Below, in pieces: positions 6,559 to 43,191 of a stretch of DNA of 64,000 bases (the first letter of the stretch is position 1; each line of letters begins with the position of its first letter). The position numbers and the translations under genes were made by a program. Below the pieces are notes generated by a model that saw only the letters and a list, made by a program, of their open reading frames with translations, did no database searches and was not told the origin of the DNA. Source of the stretch: Allobosea lupini. Its GTDB lineage: Bacteria; Pseudomonadota; Alphaproteobacteria; Rhizobiales; Beijerinckiaceae. The stretch lies in the NCBI RefSeq assembly GCF_900109525.1, contig NZ_FOAN01000007.1, positions 62,001 to 126,000 on the forward strand, given 5' to 3'.

Positions 6559-6565
6559 GGGGGCG

Positions 6566-26381: not shown

Positions 26382-28313
26382 TCAACCGGCCGAGGTCTGC
26401 GGCAGCATGAAAGCAGCGAAGAACGCAGCCAGGGCGGCGTGATCGTCGAGCGGCAGGATGTTCGCGACGTATTGGTCGGGCCGCACGATCACCAGGCAGC
26501 CGCGCTCGCGGTCGATCCCGCGCAGGTCGAAGATGTCCCAGCCGCTTTTGAAGTCGGGGCAGAACACCTTTTCGTAGTCGATCAGGCCGAGGCGGCCCTT
26601 GCGCGGCAAGAGCAGGCTCGGCAGCGCCTCGACGGCGACCTCGCGGTGAGGCTGCTGCAGGATCGCGCGCAGGTCGATGATCGCGTCGATATCCTGCGCT
26701 GGTTGGGTGTAGCGACGCAGGGGCAATGCCGGCGAGGTTGCCAGGGCCTCGCACAGCGTGCGCAGGCGTGACGTCGGCGCGGAAGGATCAGCCCTGTCGG
26801 CGAAGGCGTAGAGGCGCCAGCGGCCATCGGCCTGCGCGACATGGCCGAGCTCGACCGGCTTGGCGTCGCCGAGCCGAATCACCGGCGCGGACTGGAAGCG
26901 CGCTCCGATAGGCAACCCCGTCGCCAGATGCGCATGAGTGGACTGGCGCGTCAGGACGGAGGGCGCGTAGCGGGTCGCGGTTCCCGCGGTGTAGCGGCCG
27001 TGCCTGACGAAATAGGCCTCGACCTCCTTGGGGTCGACGCCGTCGCCGGTCTCCGAAGTCTTGAGGGGGGCGCTCAGCATCTTCGCCCATTCGCGGTCGA
27101 AGTCGATCAGCTCCTTGGCGATGGCCTGGCGCTCGGCCGAGTAGCTGTGCAGCAATTCCGGCGGGCATTGCCCGCGCAGCACCGCGGCCAGCTTCCAGCC
27201 GAGGTTGAAGGCGTCCTGCATCGAGACGTTCATGCCTTGGCCGGCCTTGGGGCTGTGGGTATGGCAGGCATCGCCGGCGATGAAGACGGCTGGCAGGCGT
27301 TGGTCCAGCTCGCCTGCCGGCACGTCGTCGAACTTGTCGCAGAGGCGCTGGCCGATCTCGTAGACCGACCACCAGGCGACCTCCTTCACCTCGAAGCTGT
27401 AGGGACGCAGGATGCGCTGTGCTGCGGAGATCAGGTGATCAACGCCGATGTTGCGGCTCGCGACCCGCTCGTTTGCGGCGAGCTTGTCGAGCTCGACATA
27501 GATCCGGATCAGATAGCCGCCCTCGCGGGGAATGATGATGATCGTGCCTTCGCCGGCCGACTGGATCAGCGCCTTCAGCCGCACATCCGGGAAATCGGTG
27601 ACGGCGAGGACGTCCATGACGCCCCAGGCCTGATTGGCGGAATCGCCTTCGAGGGTGCGGCCGATCGATTTGCGTACGGCGCTGCGCGCGCCGTCGCAGC
27701 CGACGACATAGCGCGCCCGGACGGTCTCGATCTCACCCTCATGCGCGGGATCGACGCGCTCCAGCCGCACTGTCACCGGATGCGACGCGGCGTGGTCGAT
27801 CTCGAGGTCGATCAGGCGGCGCGAATAATCGGGTTCCAGCCGGCTTGGCGAGCGCCGCATCACGTCGAGGAAGAAATCGTGGATCCGTGCCTGGTTCAGG
27901 ATCACATGCGGGAATTCGGAGAGCCCGTCCTCGACGTCCTGGATGCGCCCGCTGCGGGTGATCGCCTCCGGCCGTTTCGCGTCGGGCTTCCAGAACACGG
28001 TCTCGTTGACCCAGTAGCTTTCCTTCAGCACCCGCTCGGAGAAGCCGAAGGCATCGAACATCTCGATGGTGCGGCAGGCGATGCCATCTGCCTGGCCCAG
28101 CTCCAGCGGCCCCGGCTTCTGCTCGACGATCCGCGTGGTGATCTCGGGAAAGGCCGAGAGCTGCGCCGCGAGCGTCAGTCCGGCCGGGCCGCAGCCGACG
28201 ATCAGGACATCGACTTCCTGTGGCAGGGCGTCCCGGGCGGAGGACGCAAGATCGGTGGCAGGCTCGGAGACGGAAGGATCGCCGGTCCGGAAGCCGTTGA
28301 GATGGAACTGCAT
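26382..28313 (-). CDS. mobA: 3-hydroxybenzoate 4-monooxygenase
   Basis: 643 residues, the usual length. FAD motif VDVLIVGCGPAGLTL (~residues 35-47), the second FAD motif FIAGDACHTHSPKAGQGMN, and a C-terminal thioredoxin-like phenol-hydroxylase domain. The N-terminus (MQFHLNGFRTGDP) and blocks such as QADGIACRTIEMFDAF resemble MobA of Comamonas, which turns 3-hydroxybenzoate into protocatechuate using NADPH and O2. The start at 28313 was chosen on that resemblance; the open frame to 28529 overlaps the aldolase gene. It lies 55 bp after that gene and is likely transcribed with it. Another meta-substituted phenol acid is possible. Confidence 0.9.
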   Translation of the reverse strand: MQFHLNGFRTGDPSVSEPATDLASSARDALPQEVDVLIVGCGPAGLTLAAQLSAFPEITTRIVEQKPGPLELGQADGIACRTIEMFDAFGFSERVLKESYWVNETVFWKPDAKRPEAITRSGRIQDVEDGLSEFPHVILNQARIHDFFLDVMRRSPSRLEPDYSRRLIDLEIDHAASHPVTVRLERVDPAHEGEIETVRARYVVGCDGARSAVRKSIGRTLEGDSANQAWGVMDVLAVTDFPDVRLKALIQSAGEGTIIIIPREGGYLIRIYVELDKLAANERVASRNIGVDHLISAAQRILRPYSFEVKEVAWWSVYEIGQRLCDKFDDVPAGELDQRLPAVFIAGDACHTHSPKAGQGMNVSMQDAFNLGWKLAAVLRGQCPPELLHSYSAERQAIAKELIDFDREWAKMLSAPLKTSETGDGVDPKEVEAYFVRHGRYTAGTATRYAPSVLTRQSTHAHLATGLPIGARFQSAPVIRLGDAKPVELGHVAQADGRWRLYAFADRADPSAPTSRLRTLCEALATSPALPLRRYTQPAQDIDAIIDLRAILQQPHREVAVEALPSLLLPRKGRLGLIDYEKVFCPDFKSGWDIFDLRGIDRERGCLVIVRPDQYVANILPLDDHAALAAFFAAFMLPQTSAG

Positions 28314-28368
28314 GGCGGCGACCTTCGGTGATGCAGGACGATTGGGAGGACCGAACGCGACCGGCGTC

Positions 28369-29151
28369 TCAGCGCCGGCGGGCGCGGGCCTGTTCGAGCC
28401 ACATCTCCCAGGGGCGGTGGACCTGCGCCTCGATGCTGGCGACGCAGGCGCGGCTTTCGCCCTCCGTGAGATAGGTGACTTCGCCGAGCTGCATCGCCTG
28501 GAGCTGATAGCGCGCATTGAGCTCGGCATAGACCGCGCGGTAGACCGCCTGCTTGATCGAGCCGCCGACCACGGTCGAGCCGTGGCCGCGCATCAGGACG
28601 ATGTCGTGCCCGTCGAAATGCTCCGCCAGCGCCCGGCCGAGCTGGTTGTTGCTGATCAGCAGGTCGGTGGCATCGCCCCCGGCCTCGCGAATCTCGAAGA
28701 CCGGCGCGCCTTGGCCGACGAAGCCGGCCATGTGGAACATCGCCCGGAGCCGGGTTCCCTTGACGACGCTGAGCGGCACGATCGAATGCGAGTGACTGTG
28801 GATCACCGCCATCACATCCGGGCGCCTGCGGAAGATCTCGGCGTGGATGAAGCGCTCGAGATAGACCTTGCGGCCATTGGCGTTCACCGCCTCGCCGTCG
28901 AGCGTGAACTCGACGATGTCCTCGGCGGCGACCCGGCTCGGCGCCATGTTGCGCGCCAGCAAGAAGCGGTCGGGGCGCTTGTCGTGGCGCACGCTGATAT
29001 GGCCGAACGCGTCGACGACGCCCTGGTCGAACAGGATGTGGTTGGCCGAAACGAGCTCCTCGACGATCTCAGGCGAGGGCGCGACCGAGGCGGTGGCCGT
29101 GTCGGCCAGGTCGACGGCGATGGGCTGGTTGCCATGGTCAGACGTGCACAT
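28369..29151 (-). CDS. Class II aldolase/adducin family protein
   Basis: 260 residues. Divalent-metal ligands of the fold are visible: HSHSH in VIHSHSHSIVPL and the later His in MRGHGSTVVGG, plus the Glu in LERFIHAEIF. Members include fuculose-phosphate aldolases, but those in aromatic clusters are often decarboxylases of dihydroxyphthalate or ring-cleavage products. First gene of the operon with mobA, so a role in making or handling a hydroxybenzoate, perhaps decarboxylation of a phthalate-like acid to 3-hydroxybenzoate, is an attractive inference. Divergent from marR with a palindromic operator ~200 bp upstream. Confidence 0.88.
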   Translation of the reverse strand: MCTSDHGNQPIAVDLADTATASVAPSPEIVEELVSANHILFDQGVVDAFGHISVRHDKRPDRFLLARNMAPSRVAAEDIVEFTLDGEAVNANGRKVYLERFIHAEIFRRRPDVMAVIHSHSHSIVPLSVVKGTRLRAMFHMAGFVGQGAPVFEIREAGGDATDLLISNNQLGRALAEHFDGHDIVLMRGHGSTVVGGSIKQAVYRAVYAELNARYQLQAMQLGEVTYLTEGESRACVASIEAQVHRPWEMWLEQARARRR

Positions 29152-29595
29152 TGCTCGCTCTCTCCGAAATCGACTTGATCGAAACGACCAGCCGGACCCG
29201 CCAATCAGGCGGTGGCCGCCTGGTCGGGGTGACGGTCAGAGAGGCTGAAGGAATGCAGGGGCTACCAGCCGCTGCACGAGCGGCGCCAGCTTGCCAGCGC
29301 CTTTGAAGGCACTGGAACCAACCTCCCATCCGGCGATCTCTGAAAATCGTCCGTATACTGATTAACAGGATACGCGCAGATTTTCCGGTGTCAACCGGGG
29401 CCGAACGGTGAGTGCGTTAGTGTTCGGTTCGGACAAGCCTGAGGCGGGGCGCTTTGACCGCTTACGGATTGAAAGCATACGATCTATAGCGGCGAGGCAG
29501 CGATCGAGCCGAGCAGGCTTCGCCTGACGAAGAGCCGGCGACACGAATAATCGAGCGGCGGAATCCACCCGTTGCCCCACCAAGGCAAAGCGACG
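29152..29595. other. Divergent control region between the aldolase-mobA operon and marR
   Basis: About 444 bp without a convincing gene. It contains the operator-like palindrome at 29353-29373 and a lone GCATAC half site near 29476. Open frames here are short, lack ribosome sites and resemble no family. Confidence 0.5.
29353..29373. promoter_or_regulatory. Putative MarR operator upstream of the aldolase-mobA operon
   Basis: GTATACTG-N5-CAGGATAC, an 8-bp dyad with one mismatch. It matches the palindrome at 30177-30197 (before the Bug protein gene) at 15 of 21 positions when aligned end to end. Both flank the marR gene, so MarR is the natural ligand. Confidence 0.6.
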
Positions 29596-30078
29596 ATGGC
29601 GATGGACGATATCTATCATATGCCCGGCCATCTCATCCGGCGCGCGCAGCAGATCGCCGTCTCGCTCTTTCTGGAGGAATGCGCGCCGGTCGACCTGACT
29701 CCTGTCCAGTTCGCGGCGCTGGTCACGGTGCGCGACAATCCCGGCATCGACGCCACCCGCCTCTCGGCGCTCGTCGCCTTCGACCGCTCGACGCTCGGCA
29801 ATGTGCTGGAACGCATGGAGGCCAAGGAGCTGATCCAGCGTTCGGGCAGCAAGGACGACAAGCGGATCAAGGTTCTGCACCTGTCACCGAAGGGCGAGCG
29901 CATCCTGGAGGAAGCCGGGCCGCTGGCGCAGCGGGCGCAGGAGCGCATCCTCGCCCCGCTAGCGCCGGAGGATCGCGAGATCTTCATGCGCATGCTCGGG
30001 CAACTCGTCGAACTCAACAACGAAGCCTCCCGCGTGCCATTGCGCCTTGACGCAGTTCGCTCATCCGACGCCGCCTGA
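29596..30078 (+). CDS. MarR family transcriptional regulator
   Basis: 160 residues. Winged helix with LTPVQFAALVTVRDNPGIDATRLSALVAFDRSTLGNVLERMEAKELIQRSGSKDDKR, the classic MarR core, and helices for dimerisation at both ends. MarR proteins of aromatic clusters repress until a phenolic acid binds. It sits between two genes sets that share an operator-like palindrome, so it probably controls aldolase-mobA and the Bug gene. Start ATG 29596; a TTG at 29572 is possible. Confidence 0.93.
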   Translation: MAMDDIYHMPGHLIRRAQQIAVSLFLEECAPVDLTPVQFAALVTVRDNPGIDATRLSALVAFDRSTLGNVLERMEAKELIQRSGSKDDKRIKVLHLSPKGERILEEAGPLAQRAQERILAPLAPEDREIFMRMLGQLVELNNEASRVPLRLDAVRSSDAA

Positions 30079-30176
30079 GAGCGCGGCTTCCAACATTGCG
30101 ATTGGGCCGAAGCGACCGCGCGACTCCGTTTCGCCGGGGTCAGGCGGCTCACTGTTTGACAGCATCAAGATACGAT

Positions 30177-30197
30177 GCATACTGATAATAAGTATGC
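30177..30197. promoter_or_regulatory. Putative MarR operator upstream of the Bug protein gene
   Basis: GCATACT-N7-AGTATGC, a perfect 7-bp dyad of 21 bp, related to the site at 29353-29373. It is ~150 bp before the Bug gene and 100 bp after marR. Confidence 0.6.
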
Positions 30198-30349
30198 GTC
30201 CTTGTTTCGCGAAGTGAGCGGCAAGAGCACCTGCCGGCACAGCCTTGCCGTGCCGGGTGCTGCTGCAAGTCGAGATTGAGGACCACAGACTGCTTTTCGA
30301 ACCGAACCCGAGAACCGCGAGCAACGCGGCCCAATCCGGAGGAAACCAA

Positions 30350-31309
30350 GTGATCATCACACGACGTGCCACCCTGACGGGGCTCGCTGGCGCCGCGCTC
30401 GCGCCCCGTGCCGCCTTCGCCCAACGCAAGATCGTCAGGCTGATCGTGCCCGCTGCGGCGGGCGGCGCGATCGACGTGATCGGCCGGCTCTACGCCCAGC
30501 GCGTTGCGCCGGCACTCGACGAGTCCTGGGTGGTCGAGAACAAGGCCGGCGCGAGCAACACGCTGGGCGCGGCCGAGGTCGCGCGCGCTGCGCCCGATGG
30601 CACGACCTATCTCACCAATGCCGACATCCACATCATGGCCAGGCATGTGATGCGCAGCGTGTCCTATGACCCGCTTGCCGATTTCACGCCCATCTCGCGC
30701 TTCGCGATGTCGCCGATGGTGCTGATCGGCTCGACGAAGACGCCAGAGACCCTGCCGGCGCTGATCGCGCAGATGAAGGCGAAGCCGACCGAGTATACCT
30801 TTGCCAATTCCGGGCTTGGCAGCATGGGCCACCTCGCCACCGAGAGCTTCAAGCTCCGCACCGGCACGAGCGCCGAGCTGGTCAACTATCGCGGCACGGC
30901 CCCGGCCATCACCGATGTCGTCGCCGGCCAGGTGCCGCTGATGGTCGCCCCGCTCGGCTCGGCGCTGTCCTTCATCACCGACGGAAAAGTGCGGGCCTTC
31001 GCGATCATGGGGGCGCAGCGCAGCAAGCTGCTGCCGAACGTGCCGACCGCCGGCGAGCAGGGCTTGTCCGATCTCAACTTCACGCTCTGGTACGGTCTCT
31101 GGGGGCCGAAGGGCCTGCCGGCCGAGACGGTGCAGCGGGTCAACGCAACGGTGCAGGCCGCCTCGAAGGATCGCGAGATCGTCGAGAAGCTGACGGCGCT
31201 CGGTGCGGAGGCCGTGACCGAGGATCCCGCGAGCTTTGCCAAGTTCATCGAGGCCGAGATCCAGCGCGCCAACCGTGTGGTCGAGGAAGCCGGCATCAAG
31301 CCGGGCTGA
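30350..31309 (+). CDS. Tripartite tricarboxylate transporter solute-binding protein (Bug/TctC)
   Basis: 319 residues from a GTG start preceded by GGAGGA. It opens ITRRATLTGLAGAALAPRAAFAQ, a twin-arginine-like signal. Then IVRLIVPAAAGGAIDVIGRLYAQ, GAEVARAAPDGTTYLTNAD and VPTAGEQG, all hallmarks of the Bug family. These are periplasmic high-affinity binders of carboxylates and aromatic acids. No TctA/TctB membrane partner lies nearby, as is common for Bug orphans. Context with mobA and the shared operator suggest a hydroxybenzoate-type ligand. Confidence 0.92.
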   Translation: MIITRRATLTGLAGAALAPRAAFAQRKIVRLIVPAAAGGAIDVIGRLYAQRVAPALDESWVVENKAGASNTLGAAEVARAAPDGTTYLTNADIHIMARHVMRSVSYDPLADFTPISRFAMSPMVLIGSTKTPETLPALIAQMKAKPTEYTFANSGLGSMGHLATESFKLRTGTSAELVNYRGTAPAITDVVAGQVPLMVAPLGSALSFITDGKVRAFAIMGAQRSKLLPNVPTAGEQGLSDLNFTLWYGLWGPKGLPAETVQRVNATVQAASKDREIVEKLTALGAEAVTEDPASFAKFIEAEIQRANRVVEEAGIKPG

Positions 31310-31422: not shown

Positions 31423-31437
31423 ATCTGAGATTCAGAT
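31423..31437. promoter_or_regulatory. Palindrome upstream of the XRE regulator gene
   Basis: ATCTGA-N3-TCAGAT, a perfect dyad 23 bp before the start codon; it contains TGAGATT, which recurs twice at 32409-32436 before the MFS gene. Likely autoregulatory site. Confidence 0.5.
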
Positions 31438-31460
31438 GATGCGGCAGGTGAGGCGGCTCG

Positions 31461-32384
31461 ATGGCAATCCGGTTCGAGGACATCGGTGAGCGGCTGAAAG
31501 CCTACCGCCTGGGGCGCGGGCTGCTGGCCGAGGACGTCGCCGAACGTCTCGGGATCTCGCGGGCGGCGGTCTACCGGATCGAAGCCGGCGGCGTGGTCAA
31601 GATCGAGACCCTGGAGCGGTTGGCGACGCTGCTGGAGACGACCGTCGCCTCGCTGCTCGGGGCAGGGGTCGAGTACTATTCAAGCCCGCTCAGCTATTTC
31701 GAGCGCATGCGGCAGATCGAGGAGCAGGCGGACCAGGTCGTCGCGCATTTCCCGCCGCTATCGTACCTCCTGACCTCGGATGGCTATTCTGCCCATTTGC
31801 GGCAGACCCTGGTGGAGGCGCTGCCGCCCCATGTCGTCCGAGATCAGGCCGTGGCCGAGATCGACGCGATCATCGCGATCCTCGACGAGCGCAAGAATGC
31901 CCGCAAGCGCCGCCGGCTGAGCGTCGTCAATTTCGTAAACGTCCTCGAGATCGAGCGCTGGCTGAAGCTTGGCGTCGTCGGACGCTTCAACCTGCCCGTT
32001 GCCGAGCAGGCCCGGCGACGCCTGGCCGCGCGCGTCGAGGTCGAGCATCTGATCGGGCTCATCGAGAGCGAGCCGATGGGCGTGCAGATCGGCCTGATCG
32101 AGGAGACGGTGCCGAACATCACCTTCCAGCTTTTCCGGACGGCGGAAAAGACGCTGCTGGGGCTGAGCCCGTTCCGCCTCGGCGGCGAGTTGCCGAATCT
32201 GCGGTCCGGGATCGCCATGCTGACGGCGGATGAGGAGCCGGTACGCCTCTACGAGGACATCGCCGACGGGCTCTGGCGCCGGGCCCTCAAGGGCAGCGAG
32301 GCCGGGGCGGTGCTGCGGGCGACGCTCGATCGCTCGGCGATCGCGCAGGTGCCGCCAAAGGAAGCGTCGTCGGAGCTGGTCTGA
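31461..32384 (+). CDS. XRE family (HTH_3) transcriptional regulator with C-terminal sensor region
   Basis: 307 residues. HTH in residues ~8-60 (IGERLKAYRLGRGLLAEDVAERLGISRAAVYRIEAGGVVKIETLERLATLL). The long C-terminal part, ~240 residues, is not a cupin and I do not recognise a domain; it may bind a metabolite. It is directly upstream of the MFS-pyrK-pyrD-amidohydrolase-pyrE operon, with related TGAGATT repeats before both transcripts, and is likely its regulator. Confidence 0.9.
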   Translation: MAIRFEDIGERLKAYRLGRGLLAEDVAERLGISRAAVYRIEAGGVVKIETLERLATLLETTVASLLGAGVEYYSSPLSYFERMRQIEEQADQVVAHFPPLSYLLTSDGYSAHLRQTLVEALPPHVVRDQAVAEIDAIIAILDERKNARKRRRLSVVNFVNVLEIERWLKLGVVGRFNLPVAEQARRRLAARVEVEHLIGLIESEPMGVQIGLIEETVPNITFQLFRTAEKTLLGLSPFRLGGELPNLRSGIAMLTADEEPVRLYEDIADGLWRRALKGSEAGAVLRATLDRSAIAQVPPKEASSELV

Positions 32385-32408
32385 AGCCGCCCGAGCAGTC
32401 TGTCGCAA

Positions 32409-32436
32409 AATTGAGATTGTTCTTGCAATTGAGATT
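32409..32436 (+). promoter_or_regulatory. Direct repeat upstream of the MFS-pyr operon
   Basis: AATTGAGATT occurs at 32409-32418 and 32427-32436, exactly 18 bp apart, in an AT-rich stretch about 240 bp before the MFS start. Related to the dyad at 31423-31437. Confidence 0.5.
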
Positions 32437-32675
32437 TCTGCGTGACATAGGGGAATGACACGATGGCGCCGGCCTTCCGGTGCCGTAGCGGATTTCCCGC
32501 GGTCGACCTTGATGTCTCGACTGCCAAGCGGCGCAGCCAAGCGCCCCGGGAAAGCGGGCGAGGGCCCAAACTCCAACCGTCTTGAGACCGGCCGGCAGCC
32601 GCGCGCGGGAGCGCGCGCTGGTGCTTTGGCGTTTTGGTGCGCATCGCAAAGAAAAACAGAACGGGGAACTTCACC

Positions 32676-33923
32676 GTGAGTGACAACCAGGCCGCCATGG
32701 GCGGCTCCATCGCCCTATCCTCTCCGACCGAAGTCGACGGCAAGGCCCGCAAGGCGCTCTGGGGCGCCGCGATCGGCTATGCCATGGACGGCTTCGACCT
32801 GCTGATCCTCGGCTTCATGCTGCGGACGATCTCCGCCGACCTGCAGCTGACCCAGGGCCAGGCCGCCTCGCTCGTCACCGCCACGCTGATCGGCGCGGTG
32901 CTGGGCGGCATCGGCTTCGGCATGCTGTCGGACCGCATCGGCCGCGTCCGAGTCCTGACCTGGACGATCGTCCTCTTCGCCGTCTTCACCGGCATGTGCG
33001 CGCTGGCGCAGGGCTATTGGGACCTGCTGATCTACCGCACCATCGCGGGCCTCGGCCTTGGTGGCGAATTCGGCATCGGCATGGCGCTGGTCGCCGAAGC
33101 CTGGCCAGCGTCGAAGCGGGCGCGCGCCTCCTCCTATGTCGGCCTCGGCTGGCAGGTCGGGGTGCTTGCCGCGGCGATCGCGACCCCGATCCTGCTGCCG
33201 ACGATCGGCTGGCGCGGCATGTTCGCCATCGGCATCCTGCCGGCGGTCGCCGCCTATTTCATCCGCCATTCCCTGCATGAGCCGGAGGTCTTCGTCGCCC
33301 GCAGCAAGGACCGGCCCAAGGAGTCGGCGCTGCGCCTGCTGGTCAAGGACTGGGACACGACGAAGCTGAGCCTCGGCATGGTCGTGCTCTGCTCGGTCCA
33401 GAACTTCGGCTATTACGGCGTGATGATCTGGTTGCCGAACTACCTGGCGACCCGCTTCGGCTTCGCCCTGACGCAGTCGGCCGTCTGGACCTCGGTGACC
33501 ATCGCCGGCATGGCGGTCGGCATCTACGCCTTCGGCCATATCGCCGACCGGATCGGGCGCCGCCCGGCCTTCTTCGGCTACATGCTCGGCGCGGCCGTGA
33601 TGGTCATCGTCTATTCGCGGCTGACCGACCCGTTCCAGCTCCTTGTCGCCGGTGCGGTGATGGGCTTCTTCGTCAACGGCATGCTCGGCGGCTATGGCGC
33701 GCTGATCAGCGAGCTGTTCCCTACCGCCGCCCGCGCGACGGCCCAGAACGTGCTGTTCAATATCGGGCGCGGCGTCGGTGGCTTCGGTCCGCTCGTGGTC
33801 GGGACGATCGCGGCGGCCTACAGCTTCGAGATGGCGATCGCCTTGCTGGCGACGCTCTACGTGCTCGACATCCTCGCCATGTGGTTCCTGATTCCGGAGC
33901 GGCGTGGCGCCGAACTCGCCTGA
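32676..33923 (+). CDS. MFS transporter, aromatic acid:H+ symporter-like
   Basis: 415 residues, 12 helices. AAHS/MHS-type motifs: GYAMDGFDLLILGFM in helix 1, GMLSDRIGRVRVL in loop 2-3, GLGLGGEFGIGMALVAEAWP in helix 4-5, GHIADRIGRRPAFF in loop 8-9. The start is a GTG at 32676 with GGGGA upstream; ATG 32697 is an alternative. It begins the operon with pyrK, pyrD, amidohydrolase and pyrE (16 bp gap), so a pyrimidine-related acid such as orotate or dihydroorotate is the likely cargo (inference; dicarboxylate and aromatic acids are commoner cargo in the family). Confidence 0.9.
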   Translation: MSDNQAAMGGSIALSSPTEVDGKARKALWGAAIGYAMDGFDLLILGFMLRTISADLQLTQGQAASLVTATLIGAVLGGIGFGMLSDRIGRVRVLTWTIVLFAVFTGMCALAQGYWDLLIYRTIAGLGLGGEFGIGMALVAEAWPASKRARASSYVGLGWQVGVLAAAIATPILLPTIGWRGMFAIGILPAVAAYFIRHSLHEPEVFVARSKDRPKESALRLLVKDWDTTKLSLGMVVLCSVQNFGYYGVMIWLPNYLATRFGFALTQSAVWTSVTIAGMAVGIYAFGHIADRIGRRPAFFGYMLGAAVMVIVYSRLTDPFQLLVAGAVMGFFVNGMLGGYGALISELFPTAARATAQNVLFNIGRGVGGFGPLVVGTIAAAYSFEMAIALLATLYVLDILAMWFLIPERRGAELA

Positions 33924-33939
33924 GCGCAGGGATTTCGTG

Positions 33940-34812
33940 ATGTCGATCCAACGCGATCAGTCGCTGGCGACACCCGTTGCCGCCATCGGCGGCGGGAGCT
34001 CTCCGGCACCGTGGAAGGCGACGATCGTCGCGGAGCTCGTCGAGGTCGTCCGCAACGAGGCTGTGAACGCCGAATATCGGCATCTCGTGGTGAACTGCGG
34101 CAAGGAGGCCGCGGCGGCCCAGCCGGGGCAGTTCTTCCAGCTGCTCTGTCCACAGCCGGCCGGCGAGCAGCCATTCCTGCGCCGGCCGATGAGCCTTTAC
34201 GGAGCCGATCCCGACAAGCGGCAGGTCGCGTTTCTCTACAAGGTGACCGGCGCCGGCACGCGCGGTCTCGATACGCTGAAGCCGGGCGACCGGCTCGACA
34301 TCATGGGGCCTCTCGGTGTCGGCTTCACGCTCGACCCGGCATGGCGCCACATCGTCGCCGTCGGGCGCGGCGCGGGACTGGCGACGCTCGCCCCGCTGGC
34401 CAGGGCGGCGAGGGCCAATGGCACGCAGGTGACGGCGGTCTTCAGCGCGAGGCGCCCGGAGCTGCTCGTCTCGGTCGAGCTCTTCCAGCGCCATGGTGCC
34501 GACGTCATCGCCGTCACCGACGCCGAGCAGACCAGCGGGCCCGCCAATGTCGAGCGCATTCTGCGCCGTCAGATTGCCGAGGGTCGCTGCGACGCCTTCT
34601 TCACCTGCGGCTCAAGCCGGCTGATGCGGGTGCAGCAGCGCCTGGCGCGCGAGTTCGGGCTGCCCGGCCAGGTCGCGATGGAGCAGCAGATGGCCTGCGG
34701 AATCGGGCTTTGCTACTGCTGCGTGCGCGACTTCAACGTCAACGGCGAGATCGTCAACCGGCGCGTCTGCTGGGACGGCCCGGTCTTCGACCTGATGGAG
34801 GCGCTGCCATGA
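33940..34812 (+). CDS. pyrK: Dihydroorotate dehydrogenase B electron-transfer subunit
   Basis: 290 residues. FAD-binding region RRPMSLYG (~residue 80), NAD region GRGAGLATLAPLARAA, and C-terminal [2Fe-2S] cysteines spaced C-x4-C-x2-C-x15-C in CGIGLCYCCVRDF...VC, as in PyrK. It carries electrons between PyrD and NAD+. The Rossmann glycine motif reads GRGAGLA rather than the more usual GGGIGxA. Its stop overlaps the pyrD start. Confidence 0.92.
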   Translation: MSIQRDQSLATPVAAIGGGSSPAPWKATIVAELVEVVRNEAVNAEYRHLVVNCGKEAAAAQPGQFFQLLCPQPAGEQPFLRRPMSLYGADPDKRQVAFLYKVTGAGTRGLDTLKPGDRLDIMGPLGVGFTLDPAWRHIVAVGRGAGLATLAPLARAARANGTQVTAVFSARRPELLVSVELFQRHGADVIAVTDAEQTSGPANVERILRRQIAEGRCDAFFTCGSSRLMRVQQRLAREFGLPGQVAMEQQMACGIGLCYCCVRDFNVNGEIVNRRVCWDGPVFDLMEALP

Positions 34813-35771
34813 GCGCGGCCGGAACGATCGACCTCTCCGTCAGGATCGGTGGGCTGACCCTGCGCAATCCGGTGATGCCGGCCTCGGGCACCTTCGCCGA
34901 GGGGCTGGAGAAGGTGATGGACTTCAACCGGCTCGGCGCCTTCGTCACCAAGACGATCACGCGCGAACTGCGCGCCGGCAATCCGCTGCCGCGCGTGGTC
35001 GAGCGACCGGGCGGGCTGATCAACGCCATCGGCATCCCCTCGAAGGGCGTAACCTATTTCATCGAGACGACCATGCCGCATTACGCGGCCTATGACACGC
35101 CGCTGGTCGTCTCGATCTCGGCCCCGACGGCGGAAGGCTTCGCCAGCCTCGCCGCCGAGCTCTCGATCCCCGGCATCGCCGCGATCGAGGCCAACATCTC
35201 CTGTCCGAACATCGAGGAGGACGGCAAGGCCTTCGCGATGCGGGCGGAATCGACTGAGAAGGTCACGCGCGAACTCCGTAGGGCGACAAAGCTGCCGCTC
35301 TGGGTCAAGCTGACGCCCAATACCGGCGACGTGCCGGAGGTTGCGCGCGCCGCCGAGGCGGCGGGCGCCGATGCGGTCGTGGTCGCCAACACCATCCTGT
35401 CGATGGCGATCGACCTCAAGAGCTTCAAGCCCTGCCTCGGCAACATCATGGGAGGGCTGTCGGGGCCGGCGATCAAGCCGATCGTGCTGCGCCAGGTCTT
35501 CCAATGCGCCAAGGCGGTGACAATCCCGGTGATCGGCTGCGGCGGCATCGCCACCGCCGAGGACGCGGTCGAGTACATGCTCGCCGGGGCCAGCGCGGTT
35601 CAGGTCGGCACCGCGACCTTCCTGCAGCCGGCGGCGATGACGACGATCATCGACGGGCTTGCGGCGTTTTGCCTGCGCCGCGAGATCCCGCGCGTCGCCG
35701 ACCTGATCCGGGGCGTCGTGATCGAGGAGGCCGACGAGCCCGATCTCGCCTGGCTGGACCCGGTCTCGTGA
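34809..35771 (+). CDS. pyrD: Dihydroorotate dehydrogenase, class 1B catalytic subunit
   Basis: 320 residues. TIM barrel with FMN signatures: PVMPASGTF, NAIGIPSKG, the catalytic Cys in ANISCPNIEEDG, WVKLTPN, GGLSGPAIKP and PVIGCGGIATAEDAVEYMLAGA. The Cys base (rather than Ser) and adjacent PyrK mark class 1B, which is NAD-linked and reversible. Most alphaproteobacteria make UMP with a class 2 membrane enzyme, so this is probably an accessory copy. Overlaps the following GTG start by 4 bp. Confidence 0.93.
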   Translation: MSAAGTIDLSVRIGGLTLRNPVMPASGTFAEGLEKVMDFNRLGAFVTKTITRELRAGNPLPRVVERPGGLINAIGIPSKGVTYFIETTMPHYAAYDTPLVVSISAPTAEGFASLAAELSIPGIAAIEANISCPNIEEDGKAFAMRAESTEKVTRELRRATKLPLWVKLTPNTGDVPEVARAAEAAGADAVVVANTILSMAIDLKSFKPCLGNIMGGLSGPAIKPIVLRQVFQCAKAVTIPVIGCGGIATAEDAVEYMLAGASAVQVGTATFLQPAAMTTIIDGLAAFCLRREIPRVADLIRGVVIEEADEPDLAWLDPVS

Positions 35772-37063
35772 GCGCGCAAGCGGCCGAGATGCGCAACGTC
35801 TTCAGCGGCGACGCGGGCGATCAGGCCCTTGCTGAAGCGCTGTTCGATGCCTTGCGCGAAGCGACGGGTGACGGGGTCGGCATCACGCGCGAGGCCTATA
35901 GCGAGCGCGAGTCGCTGGCGCTCGACCTCGTCGAGGCGAAAGCGCGCGAGCTCGGCTTCGCGACAGAACGCGATGCCGGCGCCAATCTCGTCGTCACGCT
36001 GCCGGGCCGCGAGCCGGAGCTGCCCTTCCTCGCCTGCGGCTCGCATCTCGATTCCGTGCCGCAGGGCGGCAATTTCGACGGTGCGGCCGGCGTCATCGCC
36101 GGGCTCGCCATCATCGCCCGCTTCAAGGAGGAGGGGTTCGTCCCGCGCCGGACGATCAAGGTCTACGGCCTGCGCGGAGAGGAAAGCTCCCGCTTCGGCC
36201 GGGCCTATATGGGCTCCAGTGCCCTGTTTGGGGCACTCTCCGCCGCCGATCTTGCCGTGCGCGACCATGCGAGCGGGCGCACTCTTGCGGAGTGCATGGC
36301 CTCCGTCGGCGTCGACATCGCCCGCGTCAAAAAGGGCGAGCCGCTGCTCGATCCTGCCACCATCGCGGCCTGGATCGAACTGCATATCGAGCAGGGGCCG
36401 GTGCTGGTCGCGCGGGATCTGCCTGTTGGAATCGTCACCGGCATCCGCGGCAACGTCCGCCATCGCGAGGTCGAATGCCTGGGCGAGGCCGGCCATTCCG
36501 GCGCGGTTCCGCGCTGGCTCCGGCGCGACGCGGTCTTCGCCACCGCCGAACTGGTAACCCATCTCGACCGGCACTGGCGCACCTTGCTGGAACGCGGCCG
36601 CGACGTGGTCGTGACCGCCGGCGTGCTCGGCACCGATCCGCAGGAGCACGCCATCGCGCGCATTCCCGGCACGGTGCGCTTCTCCTTCGAGGTGCGCAGC
36701 CAGAGCCGCGAGACGCTTGAGGCCTTCTACGATCTCTTCGTCTCGGAATGCGCCCTGATCGGCGAGGAAAGGGGGGTCGCGTTCCGTGTCGATCGCCGGC
36801 TCGAATCCGCGCCTGCCGTGATGGATGCCGGCTGGATCGCCAGGCTCAAGGCCGCCGCCCGCGATCTCGGCCTGCCCGACGAGGACATCCCGAGCGGGGC
36901 GGGCCATGATGCGGCGGTCTTCGCCAATGCCGGTATCCCCAGCGCGATGATCTTCGTGCGCAACCAGAACGGTTCGCATAATCCGGATGAGGCGATGGCG
37001 ATCGACGATTTCCTTGCCGGGATCGCGGTGATGCGGGATGCCATCAGGGAGGCGGTGCGATGA
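35768..37063 (+). CDS. M20-family N-carbamoyl-L-amino acid hydrolase/allantoate amidohydrolase-like
   Basis: 431 residues. Metal ligands stand in GSHLDSVPQGGNFDGAAGV, RGEESSRFG, ELHIEQGPVL and NGSHNPDEAM, the pattern of hydantoinase/carbamoylase enzymes (N-carbamoyl amino acid + water to amino acid + CO2 + NH3). Lying between pyrD and pyrE it might hydrolyse N-carbamoyl-L-aspartate (ureidosuccinate); ureidopropionate or allantoate are alternatives. GTG start overlaps pyrD; a later ATG at 35789 is possible. Confidence 0.9.
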   Translation: MSAQAAEMRNVFSGDAGDQALAEALFDALREATGDGVGITREAYSERESLALDLVEAKARELGFATERDAGANLVVTLPGREPELPFLACGSHLDSVPQGGNFDGAAGVIAGLAIIARFKEEGFVPRRTIKVYGLRGEESSRFGRAYMGSSALFGALSAADLAVRDHASGRTLAECMASVGVDIARVKKGEPLLDPATIAAWIELHIEQGPVLVARDLPVGIVTGIRGNVRHREVECLGEAGHSGAVPRWLRRDAVFATAELVTHLDRHWRTLLERGRDVVVTAGVLGTDPQEHAIARIPGTVRFSFEVRSQSRETLEAFYDLFVSECALIGEERGVAFRVDRRLESAPAVMDAGWIARLKAAARDLGLPDEDIPSGAGHDAAVFANAGIPSAMIFVRNQNGSHNPDEAMAIDDFLAGIAVMRDAIREAVR

Positions 37064-37740
37064 GCGCGAACGAGATCGGCCGCGAGGTCGCCGAGCTCCT
37101 GTTCAGGGCTGGCGCCATCCATGTCAGCCGCCAGCAGCCGTTCATCCTGGCCGCCGGCTGGGCGAGCCCGGTGTATGTCGATGTCCGCCTGCTGCTCGGC
37201 GATCCTGGCTTACGCCAGGCGGTCAGCGAGCTCGCTGCCCGCTATGCGGCCGCGACTTTTCCGCCGGGCAGCTTCGACGTGATCGCCGGCGCCGAGACAG
37301 CCGGCATTCCGTTCGCGGCCTGGCTTGCCGACAGGCTGGCGCTAAAGCTGCGTTATGTCCGCAAGCGCCCGCTCGGCATCGGCCGCAACGCCCAGGTCGA
37401 GGGCGGGCCGGTCGAGGGCCTGCGCGTCCTCCTGATGGACGACCTGACGACCGATGGCGGCAGCAAGCTCAATTTCGTGCGCGGCCTGCGCGCTGCAGGG
37501 GCTGAGGTCGAGCACGTCCTGACGATCTTCTACCACGACGCCTTCCCCAGCGCCGGCGAGCGGTTGAGAGAGGCCGGCCTGACGCTGCATGCCCTGGCGA
37601 ACTGGGGCGATGTCCTTCGGGCCGGGGCCGATAACGGCCTTTCGCCGGAGGATCGTGCCGAGATCGAGCGCTTCCTGGCCGATCCCGTCGCCTGGTCGAC
37701 CCGCCATGGCGGCCGTGCCCGCCTCGCGCCGCGCAACTGA
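37060..37740 (+). CDS. pyrE: Orotate phosphoribosyltransferase
   Basis: 226 residues. The PRPP loop VLLMDDLTTDGGSK (residues 123-136) is textbook, with IAGAETAGIPFAAWLAD and YVRKRPLGIGRNAQVEG for substrate binding. Makes OMP from orotate and PRPP. Overlaps the hydrolase stop by 4 bp. As part of this cassette it may feed imported or reoxidised orotate to pyrimidine nucleotides, or it may be the only pyrE of the cell. Confidence 0.93.
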   Translation: MSANEIGREVAELLFRAGAIHVSRQQPFILAAGWASPVYVDVRLLLGDPGLRQAVSELAARYAAATFPPGSFDVIAGAETAGIPFAAWLADRLALKLRYVRKRPLGIGRNAQVEGGPVEGLRVLLMDDLTTDGGSKLNFVRGLRAAGAEVEHVLTIFYHDAFPSAGERLREAGLTLHALANWGDVLRAGADNGLSPEDRAEIERFLADPVAWSTRHGGRARLAPRN

Positions 37741-37790
37741 GCCGCAATCCGCTCCACCCCACCCCGAGGCCGCGATCTGGCGGAGATGAC

Positions 37791-38096
37791 ATGAACGAGC
37801 TTCTGAACTGGCTGCAGCAGCAGAAGGGCAGCCTTCGCACCTATATCGAGTTCCAGGACCGGGCACTGGCCCTGCGCGCGAACGCGCCCGAGCAGGCTGC
37901 GCTGCTGCGCCTGCTCGCCGATCTCGCCGGCCGCTTCGTCGAGACCTATGATCGTCAGCCGCTGTCCGCCGGGATCGCCGCCCAGGCGCTGGATCGGCTC
38001 ACCGACTTTCTCGGCAGGGCCGTCGGCGGAAGCGCTGGCGACCCGGCGAGCCAGCTGGCATTGCTCAACAAGATCGGGACCAGCGAGCTCGCCTGA
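37791..38096 (+). CDS. Small protein of unknown function after pyrE
   Basis: 101 residues, acidic-to-neutral, helical, no signal peptide or membrane helix (MNELLNWLQQQKGSLRTYIE ... LDRLTDFLGRAVG). GGAG lies 5 bases before the ATG and it follows pyrE by 50 bp on the same strand, so it is likely the last gene of the operon. No family is recognised. Confidence 0.7.
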   Translation: MNELLNWLQQQKGSLRTYIEFQDRALALRANAPEQAALLRLLADLAGRFVETYDRQPLSAGIAAQALDRLTDFLGRAVGGSAGDPASQLALLNKIGTSELA

Positions 38097-38128: not shown

Positions 38129-38872
38129 TCAGTCCACCTGGACGTCTTCCGATCCGGCCCTGACCAGATAGGTCACGGCTCCGGCGCTCATCAAGGCGAG
38201 GCAGAACCAGGTCAGCACATAGACGAGATGGCTGTTGCGGAAGCTGACCTGGGTCATGCCGCCTTGCGGCAGCGGGCCGGGCTCGGCGCTGGCGTCGGCA
38301 TCGACGAAATAGGGGGCGACCTGGCCGAGCTGCCGCGCCGACGCGATCGCCGCCACGTCGCGCGAATACCAGCGGCCGGCTGCGGGATCGTTGCTGCGCA
38401 GGAAGCCGCCGCCGGGCTCGCTCAGTCTGAGAAGCCCGGTCAGTCTGGTCTCGCCTCCGGGCGTCTTGCGCCGTGCCTCGGGGGCACGCCTGTCCTCCGG
38501 CACGAAGCCGCGATTGACGAGGACGGTGAAGCCTGCATCGGCCCGGAACGGCGCCAGCACCCAGAAGCCGGGGCCGCGCTCGGTCACCGCCATGGTCAGC
38601 GTTTCGGCTGCGTCGAGATAGCGGCCCTGCAGGGTGACGCGGCGATATTCGTCCGCCTGGGCTGAGATCGCGGGCCAGTCCGCCGGGCCGGGTGCGGCGA
38701 CCGGCGCCGCCCGCAAGCGTTCCTCGACGCGGGCGATCAGGTCGAGCTTCCAGCTCCGCCGCTGGACCTGCCAGGCGCCGAGCCCGGCGCAGACGAGGGC
38801 GATCAGGCAGAGCCCGGCGATGAAGATCGCCCGAAAGGCGCCGCCGCGCCGTCGCTCAGCGCCGGCAGACAT
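38129..38872 (-). CDS. SURF1 family protein
   Basis: 247 residues. Two terminal membrane helices (FIAGLCLIALVCAGLGAWQVQRR near residue 15; YVLTWFCLALMSAGAVTYLV near the end) around a periplasmic domain with RVTLQGRYL, VNRGFVP and a C-terminal NxHxxYxLTWF motif, diagnostic for SURF1. Assists heme-copper oxidase assembly, and in cyo operons replaces nothing else known. The start was placed at the ATG 38872, 11 bp after cyoD; longer open frame overlaps cyoD. Last gene of the cyo operon. Confidence 0.92.
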   Translation of the reverse strand: MSAGAERRRGGAFRAIFIAGLCLIALVCAGLGAWQVQRRSWKLDLIARVEERLRAAPVAAPGPADWPAISAQADEYRRVTLQGRYLDAAETLTMAVTERGPGFWVLAPFRADAGFTVLVNRGFVPEDRRAPEARRKTPGGETRLTGLLRLSEPGGGFLRSNDPAAGRWYSRDVAAIASARQLGQVAPYFVDADASAEPGPLPQGGMTQVSFRNSHLVYVLTWFCLALMSAGAVTYLVRAGSEDVQVD

Positions 38873-38883
38873 ATGCCTTAGCC

Positions 38884-39273
38884 TCACATCCGGTGCATGT
38901 CCGGCATCATGTTGGCGTTGAGGTGGAACATCACCCAGAGCGAGCCGGCCAGCGCGATCGCGACGACGATGATCGTGAAGATCAACGCCAGCATGGTCCA
39001 CCCGCCCTCCGAGCGGCCATTCATGTGCAGGAAGTAGACCATGTGCACGACAATCTGCGCGGCGGCGAAGAGCATGATCACGATCGCCGTCAGGGTCGAG
39101 TCGCCGAGCACGTCGTTCATGACGAGCCAGAACGGGATCGCGGTCAGGACGACCGAGAGCAGGAAGCCGGTGACGTAGCCGCGCATGCTGCCATGCGCCG
39201 CGCCATGGGCATCGTGCCCGTCATGATGGGCGTCGTGATGGCCGCCCTGCGCCTCTGCCTGGTTCTGGCTCAT
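38884..39273 (-). CDS. cyoD: Cytochrome o ubiquinol oxidase subunit IV
   Basis: 129 residues. His-rich N-terminal segment ([19 protein letters not shown]) then three helices with [19 protein letters not shown] and [15 protein letters not shown], the CyoD signature. Start ATG 39273 overlaps the cyoC stop by 4 bp. Confidence 0.95.
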
Positions 39274-39902
39274 TTCAGCACGCCCATCAGGTAGACGAAG
39301 GTGAAGACGCCGATCCAGACGACGTCGAGGAAGTGCCAGAACATGGAAAGGCACATCAGCCGGCGCCGATTGGCCTCGATCAGCCCGTGCTTCGAGACCT
39401 GCGTCATCAGCACGCCCAGCCAGATCAGGCCGAAGGTGACATGCAGGCCGTGGGTGCCGACCAGCGTGAAGAAGGAGGAGAGGAAGGCGCTGCGCATCGG
39501 CGTCGCGCCTTCGTGGATCAGGTGGGCGAACTCGTAGAGCTCGATGCCAAGGAAGGCGAGGCCGAAGACGGCGGTGACGGCGAGCCAGCCCTGCACCGCC
39601 GCTTGCCGGCCCTTGTCCATCGCCAGCATGGCAAAGCCATAGGTGATCGAGGAGAACAGCAGCATGGCGGTGTTGACCGCGACCAGCTTCAGGTCGAACA
39701 GGTCGGCGCCGGATGGTCCCGCCGCGTAATTGCGCCCGAGCACGCCATAGGTCGCGAAGAGGACCGCGAAGACCAGGCAGTCGCTCATCAGGTAGAGCCA
39801 GAAGCCCAGCATGGTCGAGCCGCCCGGATGCGCGTGCTCTTCCTCGGTGACGTAGAATGCCGGGGCGGTGCCTGCGGCCTGCGCTGTCGCCTTAGCCATC
39901 AT
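39270..39902 (-). CDS. cyoC: Cytochrome o ubiquinol oxidase subunit III
   Basis: 210 residues, five helices. [22 protein letters not shown] and [15 protein letters not shown] match CyoC. Starts 7 bp after cyoB with GAGGGG before a double ATG (39902/39899). Confidence 0.95.
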
Positions 39903-39909
39903 CCGCCCC

Positions 39910-41910
39910 TCAGGCCCGGGCCAGAAGCTGGGTCCGCGCATCTTCCGCCTGCACCACCTCGTCGGCGGGAATGTGGAAGTCGCGGTCGTAGTTGAAGGTA
40001 TGGATGATCACGGCGGCGAGCACGGCGACGAAGGAGAGCGCCGCCAGCCACCAGATGTACCAGATCAGGGCGAAGCCGCAGATCGTCGCCAGCCCGGCGA
40101 TGATCACGCCGGCCCCGGTGTTCCTGGGCATGTGGATCGGCCGGAAGCCGGCGAGCGGGCGGGTATAGCCGCGCTTCTTCATGTCGGCCCAAGCGTCGAG
40201 GTCGTACACGATCGGCGTGAAGGCGAAATTGTAGGCCGGCGGCGGCGAGGAGGTCGACCATTCCAGCGTGCGCCCGTCCCAGGGATCGCCGGTTGTATCG
40301 CGCAGCCGCTCGCGGCGCAGGATGCTGACGCCGATCTGGATCAGGAAGCAGGCGATGCCGAGAGCGATCAGCACCGCGCCGAGTGCCGCGATCACGAACC
40401 AGATCTGCAGCGAGGGGTCCTCGAAGCGGCTGAGACGGCGCGTCACGCCCATCAGGCCGAGGATGTAGAGCGGCATGAAGGCGACGTAGAAGCCGATCAC
40501 CCAGAACCAGAAGGAGAGGACACCCCAGAACCGGTCGAGCTTGAAGCCGAAGGCCTTGGGGAACCAGTAGGCGACGCCGGCGAAGACGCCGAAGACCACG
40601 CCGCCGATGATGACGTTATGGAAATGGGCGATCAGGAAGAGGCTGTTGTGCAGCACGAAATCGGCCGGCGGCACCGCGAGCATGACGCCGGTCATGCCGC
40701 CGATGACGAAGGTGATCATGAAGGCGAGCAGCCACATCATCGGCAACTCGAAGCGGATGCGGCCACGATACATCGTGAAGAGCCAGTTGAAGATCTTCGC
40801 GCCCGTCGGGATCGAGATGATCATCGTGGTGATGCCGAAGAAGGAGTTCACGCTGGCGCCCGAGCCCATCGTGAAGAAGTGATGCAGCCAGACCAGGTAG
40901 GACAGGATGGTGATCACCACCGTCGCATAGACCATCGAGGCGTAGCCAAAGAGGCGCTTGCCGCAGAAGGTCGAGGCCACCTCGGAATAGACGCCGAAGA
41001 TCGGCAGGATCAGGATGTAGACCTCCGGGTGGCCCCAGATCCAGATCAGGTTCACGTACATCATCGGATTGCCGCCGAGATCGTTCGTGAAGAAGTTGGT
41101 GCCGACATAGCGGTCGAGCGTCAGCAGGGCGAGGGTCGCCGCCAGGATCGGGAAAGTCGCGACGATCAGTACGTTGGTGCACAGCGACGTCCAGGTGAAG
41201 ACCGGCATCTTCATCATGTCCATGCCGGGCGCGCGCATCTTGACGATGGTCGCGATCAGGTTGACGCCGGACAAGGTCGTACCGATGCCTGCGATCTGCA
41301 GGCCCCAGAGATAATAGTCCATGCCTACCCCGGGCGAGTAGGCGGCCCCCGACAGCGGCGGATAGGCGAGCCAGCCGACCTTGGCGAACTCGCCGATGAA
41401 GAGCGAGGCCATGATCAGTACGGCGCCGCCGACCGTCATCCAGAAGCTGAAATTGTTGAGGAAGGGAAAGGCGACGTCACGCGCGCCGATCTGCAGCGGC
41501 ACGACGTAGTTCATCAGGCCGGTGACGAAGGGCATCGCCACGAAGAAGATCATGATCACGCCATGGGCGGTGAAGATCTGGTCGTAATGGTGGGGTGGCA
41601 GATAGCCCTCGTTGCCGGCGAAGGCGATCGCCTGCTGGCCGCGCATCATCAGCGCGTCGGCAAAGCCCCGCAGCAGCATGACGACGCCGAGGATCATGTA
41701 CATGATCCCGATCTTCTTGTGGTCCACGCTGGTGAACCAGTCGTGCCAGAGATAGCCCCAGAGCTTGTAGCGCGTAATCAGCGCCAGCAGCACGAGCCCG
41801 CCGAGCAGGACGACGGCGAAGGTCCCGATCAGGATCGGCTCGTGATAGGGGATCGCCTCGAGGGTGAAGCGTCCGAAGAGGAACTTCCACCAGTCGGGAT
41901 AGGAGGTCAT
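39910..41910 (-). CDS. cyoB: Cytochrome o ubiquinol oxidase subunit I
   Basis: 666 residues, full length. Heme-copper oxidase signatures: [22 protein letters not shown] (CuB His and cross-linked Tyr), LHHFFTMG, and [14 protein letters not shown] for the heme ligands. Transfers electrons from ubiquinol to O2 and pumps protons. Start ATG 41910 has AGGAGG-like sequence nearby; the same frame stays open far upstream without meaning. Confidence 0.97.
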
Positions 41911-41924
41911 GCTCGCCTCGCGGC

Positions 41925-43055: not shown

Positions 43056-43191
43056 TCTTTCGCGCCGCACATAAGACAATCTGTCCCATTGCGGCAGTTT
43101 GACGTGTTGCTTCTATCCACCGTATCCATTTGTCAGAGGTGCGGGCAAGTCCGGTCTCTCCGGGCGGCCGCCAGCTTAGGAATTCGCGGTC

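Follow-up and report, generated by a model that had tools for sequence, protein, structure and literature searches.

Fermentation of orotate has been known since the 1950s from Clostridium (Zymobacterium) oroticum, where an NADH-linked reduction is followed by ring opening to ureidosuccinate and hydrolysis of the latter to aspartate, CO2 and ammonia. Class 1B dihydroorotate dehydrogenases, in turn, are biosynthetic enzymes in Gram-positive bacteria. Here, a stretch of 64,000 nucleotides from Allobosea lupini (contig NZ_FOAN01000007.1, positions 62,001 to 126,000), in the following referred to as the window, was analyzed with respect to a cassette located on the plus strand at positions 31423-38096. 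In this order, the cassette encodes an XRE-family regulator, a major facilitator superfamily (MFS) transporter, a PyrK-like protein, a class 1B PyrD, an M20 hydrolase, PyrE and an open reading frame (ORF) of 101 amino acids. It is very probably an accessory operon for the uptake and catabolism of orotate; substrate, direction of the reactions and regulation are read from gene content, gene order, conservation, homology and repeats. All genes named in an original prediction made on this DNA were found by family models and ORF calls on the strand and in the order claimed. The 101 amino acid ORF lies within the range given there but had not been named, and it recurs in related cassettes. Operator-like repeats, the 101 amino acid protein, exchangeable transporters and plasmid-borne relatives go beyond that prediction.

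The electron-transfer subunit PyrK (33904-34812, with the start at GTG 33904 or ATG 33940) and the catalytic subunit PyrD (34809-35771) were assigned to a dihydroorotate dehydrogenase of class 1B. PyrD reaches the curated class 1B-type model NF005574 with 346.4 bits (cut-off 269) and aligns with Lactococcus lactis PyrDB (1ep1) through the NISCPN segment. PyrK contains the iron-sulfur-binding domain PF10418 (45.3 bits, cut-off 23.9), its cysteines 265, 270, 273 and 289 are invariant among 14 aligned sequences, and its best matches among solved structures include the PyrK chains 5ksw_B and 1ep3_B. The class 1B assignment made from the sequence beforehand is thus upheld by PyrD and by the PyrK domain, short of the full-length pyrK models. 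A PreA-type dihydropyrimidine dehydrogenase was ruled out, as PyrD scores 139 bits with the PreA model NF006183 at a cut-off of 335.

The M20 protein (35768-37063) belongs to the hydantoinase/carbamoylase family (TIGR01879, 302.3 bits, cut-off 204) and is a candidate ureidosuccinase (N-carbamoyl-L-aspartate amidohydrolase). It stays below the equivalog cut-offs of the N-carbamoyl-glutamate hydrolase ErtE (307 of 520 bits) and of the allantoate deiminase AllC (212 of 597.75 bits). The accessory PyrE (37060-37740) exceeds the cut-off of the orotate phosphoribosyltransferase equivalog NF001729 (248.3 bits versus 245) and does not reach that of TIGR00336 (94.6 bits versus 106.8). The MFS transporter (32676-33923) is similar to aromatic-acid/H+ symporters and matches PF07690 over the cut-off with 183.7 bits; its frame is open from 32634, and the likely start is GTG 32676. 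PyrK and PyrD, PyrD and M20, and M20 and PyrE overlap by 4 bp each, and MFS and PyrK either overlap by 20 bp or are separated by 16 bp, depending on the PyrK start chosen, in line with the tight joins described before.

The cassette is accessory, because a class 2 pyrD, another pyrE, pyrC and pyrB are located elsewhere in the genome. According to the original prediction, a genome lacking a second pyrD and pyrE would have made the cassette the housekeeping route; second copies of both were found away from it. The class 2 pyrD lies on contig C11, whereas the second pyrE is found on C15 beside the sole pyrC-type dihydroorotase of the genome, for which TIGR00856 exceeds its cut-off once in this genome. 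The pyrB gene is also on C15. A housekeeping role of the cassette in pyrimidine synthesis was ruled out on the basis of these separate genes. Likewise, all 16 genomes with a cassette-type PyrK contain a class 2 pyrD over the cut-off, always at a place other than the cassette, and all 16 contain pyrB (15 over the cut-off), never at the cassette. PyrK-like matches occur in 12 of the 61 genomes of the genus sample, including that of the window, and in 16 of the 385 genomes of the class sample, 11 of which (again counting the window's own) show at least 50% identity. Bosea accounts for most of the named sequences closely related to PyrK; one of the two nearest, L075 (L numbers denote loci), comes from a bin labelled Methylobacterium. 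The cox region adjoins the cassette in the window, but is about 10 kb away in the genomes G398 and G431 and nearly 1 Mb away in G413. Therefore, the location of the cassette is not fixed within the genus. In L070, the locus of G413, the match to MFS and that to M20 both fall into two parts, possibly owing to frameshifts or to errors in the assembly.

The same gene order was then looked for in other genomes and recurs there, and thus does not reflect chance. A PyrK profile retrieved 352 relatives in species genomes, of which the best 80 were examined; the counts given below describe these 80, in which genes were identified through tblastn matches to a small set of reference proteins. Counts of 66 refer to the loci with at least 6.5 kb downstream (14 left out for short flanks), and counts of 59 to those with both flanks (21 left out). 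PyrD and the M20 hydrolase each follow PyrK in 66 of 66 loci, which ruled out a chance arrangement or mis-called genes, while a dihydroorotase is present in 34/66 and a PyrE on the same strand in 53/66. If both flanks and either strand are considered, PyrE is found in 52/59 loci. A gene similar to aspartate ammonia-lyase (aspartase) is located near PyrK in 9/80 loci, and in L078, L079, L082 and L083, titled Bosea or Boseaceae, it lies directly 3' of PyrE. The aspartase of L069, a locus sharing its genome with L078, exceeds the cut-off of NF008909 and stays below that of TIGR00839 (652 of 681 bits). The cassette dihydroorotases that were scored (L055, L057 and L063) are all over the TIGR00856 cut-off. 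Two PyrE genes were seen in L057, L072 (the same place as L080), L082 and L088, one of them being divergent in L072 and L082.

Read together, the enzymes of these relatives would encode a route from orotate via dihydroorotate, N-carbamoyl-aspartate and aspartate to fumarate. In the proposed pathway, orotate would be imported by the MFS protein and reduced with NADH to dihydroorotate by PyrK-PyrD running in reverse. A dihydroorotase would then open the ring to N-carbamoyl-L-aspartate, using an operon copy in about half of the close relatives and the single chromosomal pyrC here. The M20 hydrolase would convert this intermediate to aspartate, CO2 and ammonia, and in some relatives the aspartase would release fumarate and a second ammonia. 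PyrE might divert part of the orotate to orotidine monophosphate (OMP), which is a guess. The original prediction had left open whether the cassette serves salvage to OMP or breakdown to aspartate. Because of the frequencies of the M20 hydrolase, the dihydroorotase and the aspartase as compared to those of PyrE, breakdown is favored as the core, and salvage through PyrE appears only as a frequent extra. The version of breakdown suggested there, in which the housekeeping dihydroorotase takes part, agrees with our results, as the sole pyrC-type gene on C15 must supply this step. A carbamoylase is indeed present where the prediction had expected a dihydroorotase, but it would act after that enzyme and not replace it.

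Alignment of the M20 protein of the window with 73 of those from the 80 loci, leaving out short or weaker matches, revealed that Asn102, Arg136, Ser140, Arg227, Gly228 and Asn229 are present in all 74 cassette proteins and in none of the paralogues. Arg249 is found in 71/74. The outgroup for this comparison was small and comprised three paralogues of the carbamoylase family encoded in the genome of the window and three Protein Data Bank (PDB) alignments. Arg136 is located two residues before the pair Glu138-Glu139, and this place is taken by Thr or Ala in the three PDB alignments. The additional arginines would suit a second carboxylate of the substrate, such as that of carbamoyl-aspartate. 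Operon context and signature residues make the cassette M20 protein the best candidate for ureidosuccinase.

With respect to the substrate, the transporters of the related loci are informative. An MFS gene is present in 29/59 loci, a tripartite ATP-independent periplasmic (TRAP) system in 15/59 and neither of the two in 15/59. MFS and TRAP genes were found together in 0/59 loci within the limits used; L146 has both in a wider flank. An ATP-binding cassette system was recognized by sequence in some loci lacking MFS and TRAP (L094 and L126). The cassette DctP proteins of L055 and L121 match 4nn3_A with 464 and 446 bits, the next best matches being at 172 and 168 bits, and a binding protein that shares 59-67% identity with 4NN3 over the aligned part is encoded in 20/80 loci. 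A statement in PMC11668362 gives 4NN3 as bound to orotic acid. As MFS and TRAP systems stand in for one another ahead of the same enzymes, orotate is probably also the acid transported by the MFS protein of the window. A structure model of one cassette DctP predicted from the single sequence had a predicted local distance difference test score (pLDDT) of 36 and was not used.

Several observations weigh against an orotate-catabolic operon. PyrK remains under the cut-off of every full-length NCBIfam pyrK model, and the best NCBIfam match of the MFS protein, the aromatic acid/H+ symporter model TIGR00895, is missed (314.4 bits, cut-off 418.55), which leaves a resemblance only. No TIGR00856 dihydroorotase, no aspartase and no TRAP system is contained in the window cassette itself, so that these links are taken over from relatives; the role of PyrE is guessed, and an XRE homologue was not found in 23 of the 59 loci with both flanks. 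In L118, which is outside the 66-locus count, MFS, PyrK and PyrD are followed by PyrC, and no M20 gene was found within 4.4 kb 3' of PyrK. Of 10 more distantly related loci in the class sample, 7 lack M20 (L056, L057, L059-L062 and L064), and our confidence in an orotate-catabolic operon was lowered for this reason. The remaining three (L055, L058 and L063) contain both M20 and PyrE. L057 has PyrK, PyrD, two PyrE and PyrC, while in L056, L059, L060, L061, L062 and L064 PyrK and PyrD are the sole cassette enzymes, accompanied by an XRE gene in four of the six. L143 and L153, which are outside the flank-filtered counts, resemble the M20-free type. The existence of such loci indicates that the PyrK-PyrD pair also serves other contexts.

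In L060-L062 and L064, the XRE-PyrK-PyrD genes without M20 and PyrE stand beside a gene for a molybdenum-hydroxylase-like protein of 780 amino acids, and some of these loci also carry repeat protein, deacetylase-like and TauD-like genes, all named by eye. These genes possibly represent another route under the same type of regulator. In L063, whose cassette has M20, PyrC and PyrE, two ORFs 5' of the XRE gene (5712-6871) resemble, on inspection by eye, a split thiamine-diphosphate decarboxylase.

The M20-free loci bear on the alternative that the cassette degrades dihydroorotate, carboxymethylhydantoin, N-carbamoyl-aspartate or a substituted orotate, with orotate being a side substrate. There, PyrK-PyrD with the same kind of XRE regulator next to molybdenum-hydroxylase-like and other genes suggests that the pair can serve another route, and the specificity of the MFS carrier leaves room for related compounds. 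Nevertheless, the binding proteins similar to 4NN3, with the ligand stated for it, and the PyrE present in most loci counted both name orotate, and we regard this alternative as unlikely. Salvage alone, in which imported orotate would be used by PyrE to form OMP and spare de novo synthesis while PyrDK and the hydrolase tune pools, appears quite improbable. It would account for the frequent PyrE, which passes one orotate phosphoribosyltransferase cut-off, and for L057 with its two PyrE genes and PyrC in the absence of M20; but it leaves the M20 hydrolase of all 66 close relatives with enough flank aside, dihydroorotase and aspartase lead away from OMP, and a transporter together with the housekeeping PyrE would suffice. 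An alternative biosynthetic set for NAD-linked dihydroorotate oxidation upon failure of the quinone-linked PyrD is very improbable, for although PyrC, PyrDK and PyrE catalyze successive steps of biosynthesis and class 1B enzymes are generally known as biosynthetic in Gram-positive bacteria, no pyrB lies at the cassette in the 16 genomes, the hydrolase found in 66/66 loci would destroy the intermediate, and importers are present, including a binding protein close to 4NN3 with its stated orotic acid.

Expression of the proposed operon for orotate catabolism would be under control of the XRE-family regulator (31461-32384, 307 amino acids). It has an N-terminal helix-turn-helix domain (PF13560, 45.7 bits, cut-off 27) and a C-terminal part without family match. 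The motif AWYTGAGATT occurs at three sites in the window. One of these, ATCTGAGATT (31423-31432), lies 5' of the XRE gene, and the other two form the tandem operator-like repeat AATTGAGATT (32409-32436) 5' of the MFS gene, with copies at 32409-32418 and 32427-32436 at a spacing of 18 bp. In shuffled sequences, the mean number of sites was 0.07, and none of 100 shuffles had three. The tandem pair is present once in the 6.1 Mb genome, and a reversed control gave 0. Among eight relatives, exact copies 5' of the MFS gene were found for both sites in five, for one site in two and for none in the Paracoccus locus L084; the exact site 5' of the XRE gene is kept in 4/8. In the alignment of eight intergenic regions, the tandem repeat is part of the longest stretch without any variable column. 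Between the repeat and the likely MFS start lies a leader of about 240 nucleotides (32437-32675) with GC-rich stretches conserved in Bosea. An Rfam scan of the cassette region including this leader gave no match at E <= 0.1, a sigma-70 scan of the region yielded 0 promoters (0.5 expected by chance), and 4 terminator-like sites were found (3.1 by chance). Through TTGAGATT-type sites, the XRE regulator, with the 101 amino acid protein as a partner, would control both the XRE gene and the operon headed by the transporter gene.

The 101 amino acid protein (37791-38096), for which no Pfam or NCBIfam match was obtained, represents a family not described so far. A profile built from 25 loci and the window matches 38/80 loci, 13 of them new. 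An XRE homologue is located within 7.5 kb of PyrK in 36/59 loci. Both the XRE gene and the 101 amino acid protein are encoded in 31/59, the XRE gene only in 5, the small protein only in 0 and neither in 23, a distribution whose significance is inflated by the relatedness of the genomes. On this basis, the small protein is proposed as a partner of the XRE regulator. A global search, with part of the candidates scored, yielded at least 85 relatives, none with a Pfam domain. The AlphaFold model of the protein is all helical with a pLDDT of 93, and Foldseek gave no match for it at E <= 0.001. A resemblance of the model to the CheA P1 or histidine phosphotransfer (HPt)-like fold is too weak to be convincing for helical bundles. 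LysR-like genes were seen 5' of PyrK in L101, L115 and L135 (by sequence) and in L168 (annotated).

The cassette is also found on plasmids of Variovorax, Nitratireductor and Roseomonas. On the Klebsiella pneumoniae plasmid NZ_CP050823.1 (L165, 4537-11774), genes for MFS, PyrK, PyrD, M20, PyrC, XRE and the small protein are located near lacY and lacZ; the annotation of this stretch reads dihydroorotate dehydrogenase, Zn-dependent hydrolase, pyrC and hypothetical. Its M20 protein carries the signature residues, its regulator is 48% identical to that of the window, and its small protein matches the profile with E 3e-13. This stretch is covered to at least 80% in 53 of 72,556 plasmid records, and all 55 records matching it are from Klebsiella at 99% identity or more. 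When extended over the lac genes, which requires at least part of lacYZ, it is covered to at least 80% in at least 49 records among the best 5000. No match to the stretch was present in the E. coli collection. A tblastn search of the plasmids with M20 gave 1234 records, nearly all below 60% identity and including other carbamoylases, so that this number does not serve as a count. To judge from the Klebsiella plasmids, the trait seems to have passed between widely differing bacteria. Cow milk contains orotate and lactose, hence the idea of a dairy connection of the lac-linked cassette. Among the 38 cassette rows listed, 6 give milk or mastitis milk and 20 give human samples, and no enrichment is claimed. 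Tentatively, and with somewhat less than even confidence in the picture as a whole, we envisage a modular proteobacterial operon leading from orotate to aspartate and in some cases fumarate, in which the M20 protein is the ureidosuccinase, the XRE regulator senses orotate jointly with a small helical protein from a new family, and the Klebsiella version beside lacYZ forms part of an adaptation to milk. In the records examined, cassette genes are labelled dihydroorotate dehydrogenase, dihydroorotase, Zn-dependent hydrolase or hypothetical, and these current labels hide the pathway.

In the neighborhood of the cassette, FAD-monooxygenase-like, class II aldolase-like, MarR and TctC genes are located on its 5' side (window positions 26382-31309). 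They are also beside the cassette in L078, and MarR and TctC in L068 as well; in the remaining loci searched, whose flanks vary, they have no match above 60% identity. On the 3' side, cytochrome oxidase-type genes, named by eye, occupy the minus strand at 38129-44325.

A search of the open-licence literature in PubMed Central (PMC), with subscription papers being outside its scope, found no orotate-catabolic operon and no description of its regulator pair, its spread or a ureidosuccinase gene. The chemistry itself is known; as measured against this literature, the operon, the hydrolase gene, the regulator pair and their spread would be new. The analysis provides a specific candidate for the ureidosuccinase gene, found in many species, together with a regulator whose operator-like sites are specified and a small protein not described before. 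Compared with the N-carbamoyl-L-amino acid hydrolases and allantoate amidohydrolases of the M20 family (3n5f and 1z2l; ErtE), the cassette hydrolase shares family and metal-site residues, but it has a signature of its own and stays under the ErtE and AllC cut-offs. The TRAP binding protein 4NN3 of Maridesulfovibrio salexigens has its close counterparts in the 20 loci mentioned above, whereas the window cassette has an MFS carrier instead. The class 1B enzyme of Lactococcus lactis (1ep1-1ep3) likewise consists of PyrD and an iron-sulfur PyrK, to which the cassette proteins match with E 6e-69 and 4e-24, respectively; it is biosynthetic there, whereas the cassette pair adjoins a hydrolase and an importer, and its PyrK is under the curated pyrK cut-offs. 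In its chemistry, the cassette resembles the route of Clostridium oroticum, as it would likewise reduce orotate with NADH and proceed through ureidosuccinate to aspartate, CO2 and ammonia. In contrast to that route, the cassette is found in proteobacteria and takes the form of a single regulated operon that also encodes an importer, PyrE and the small helical protein.

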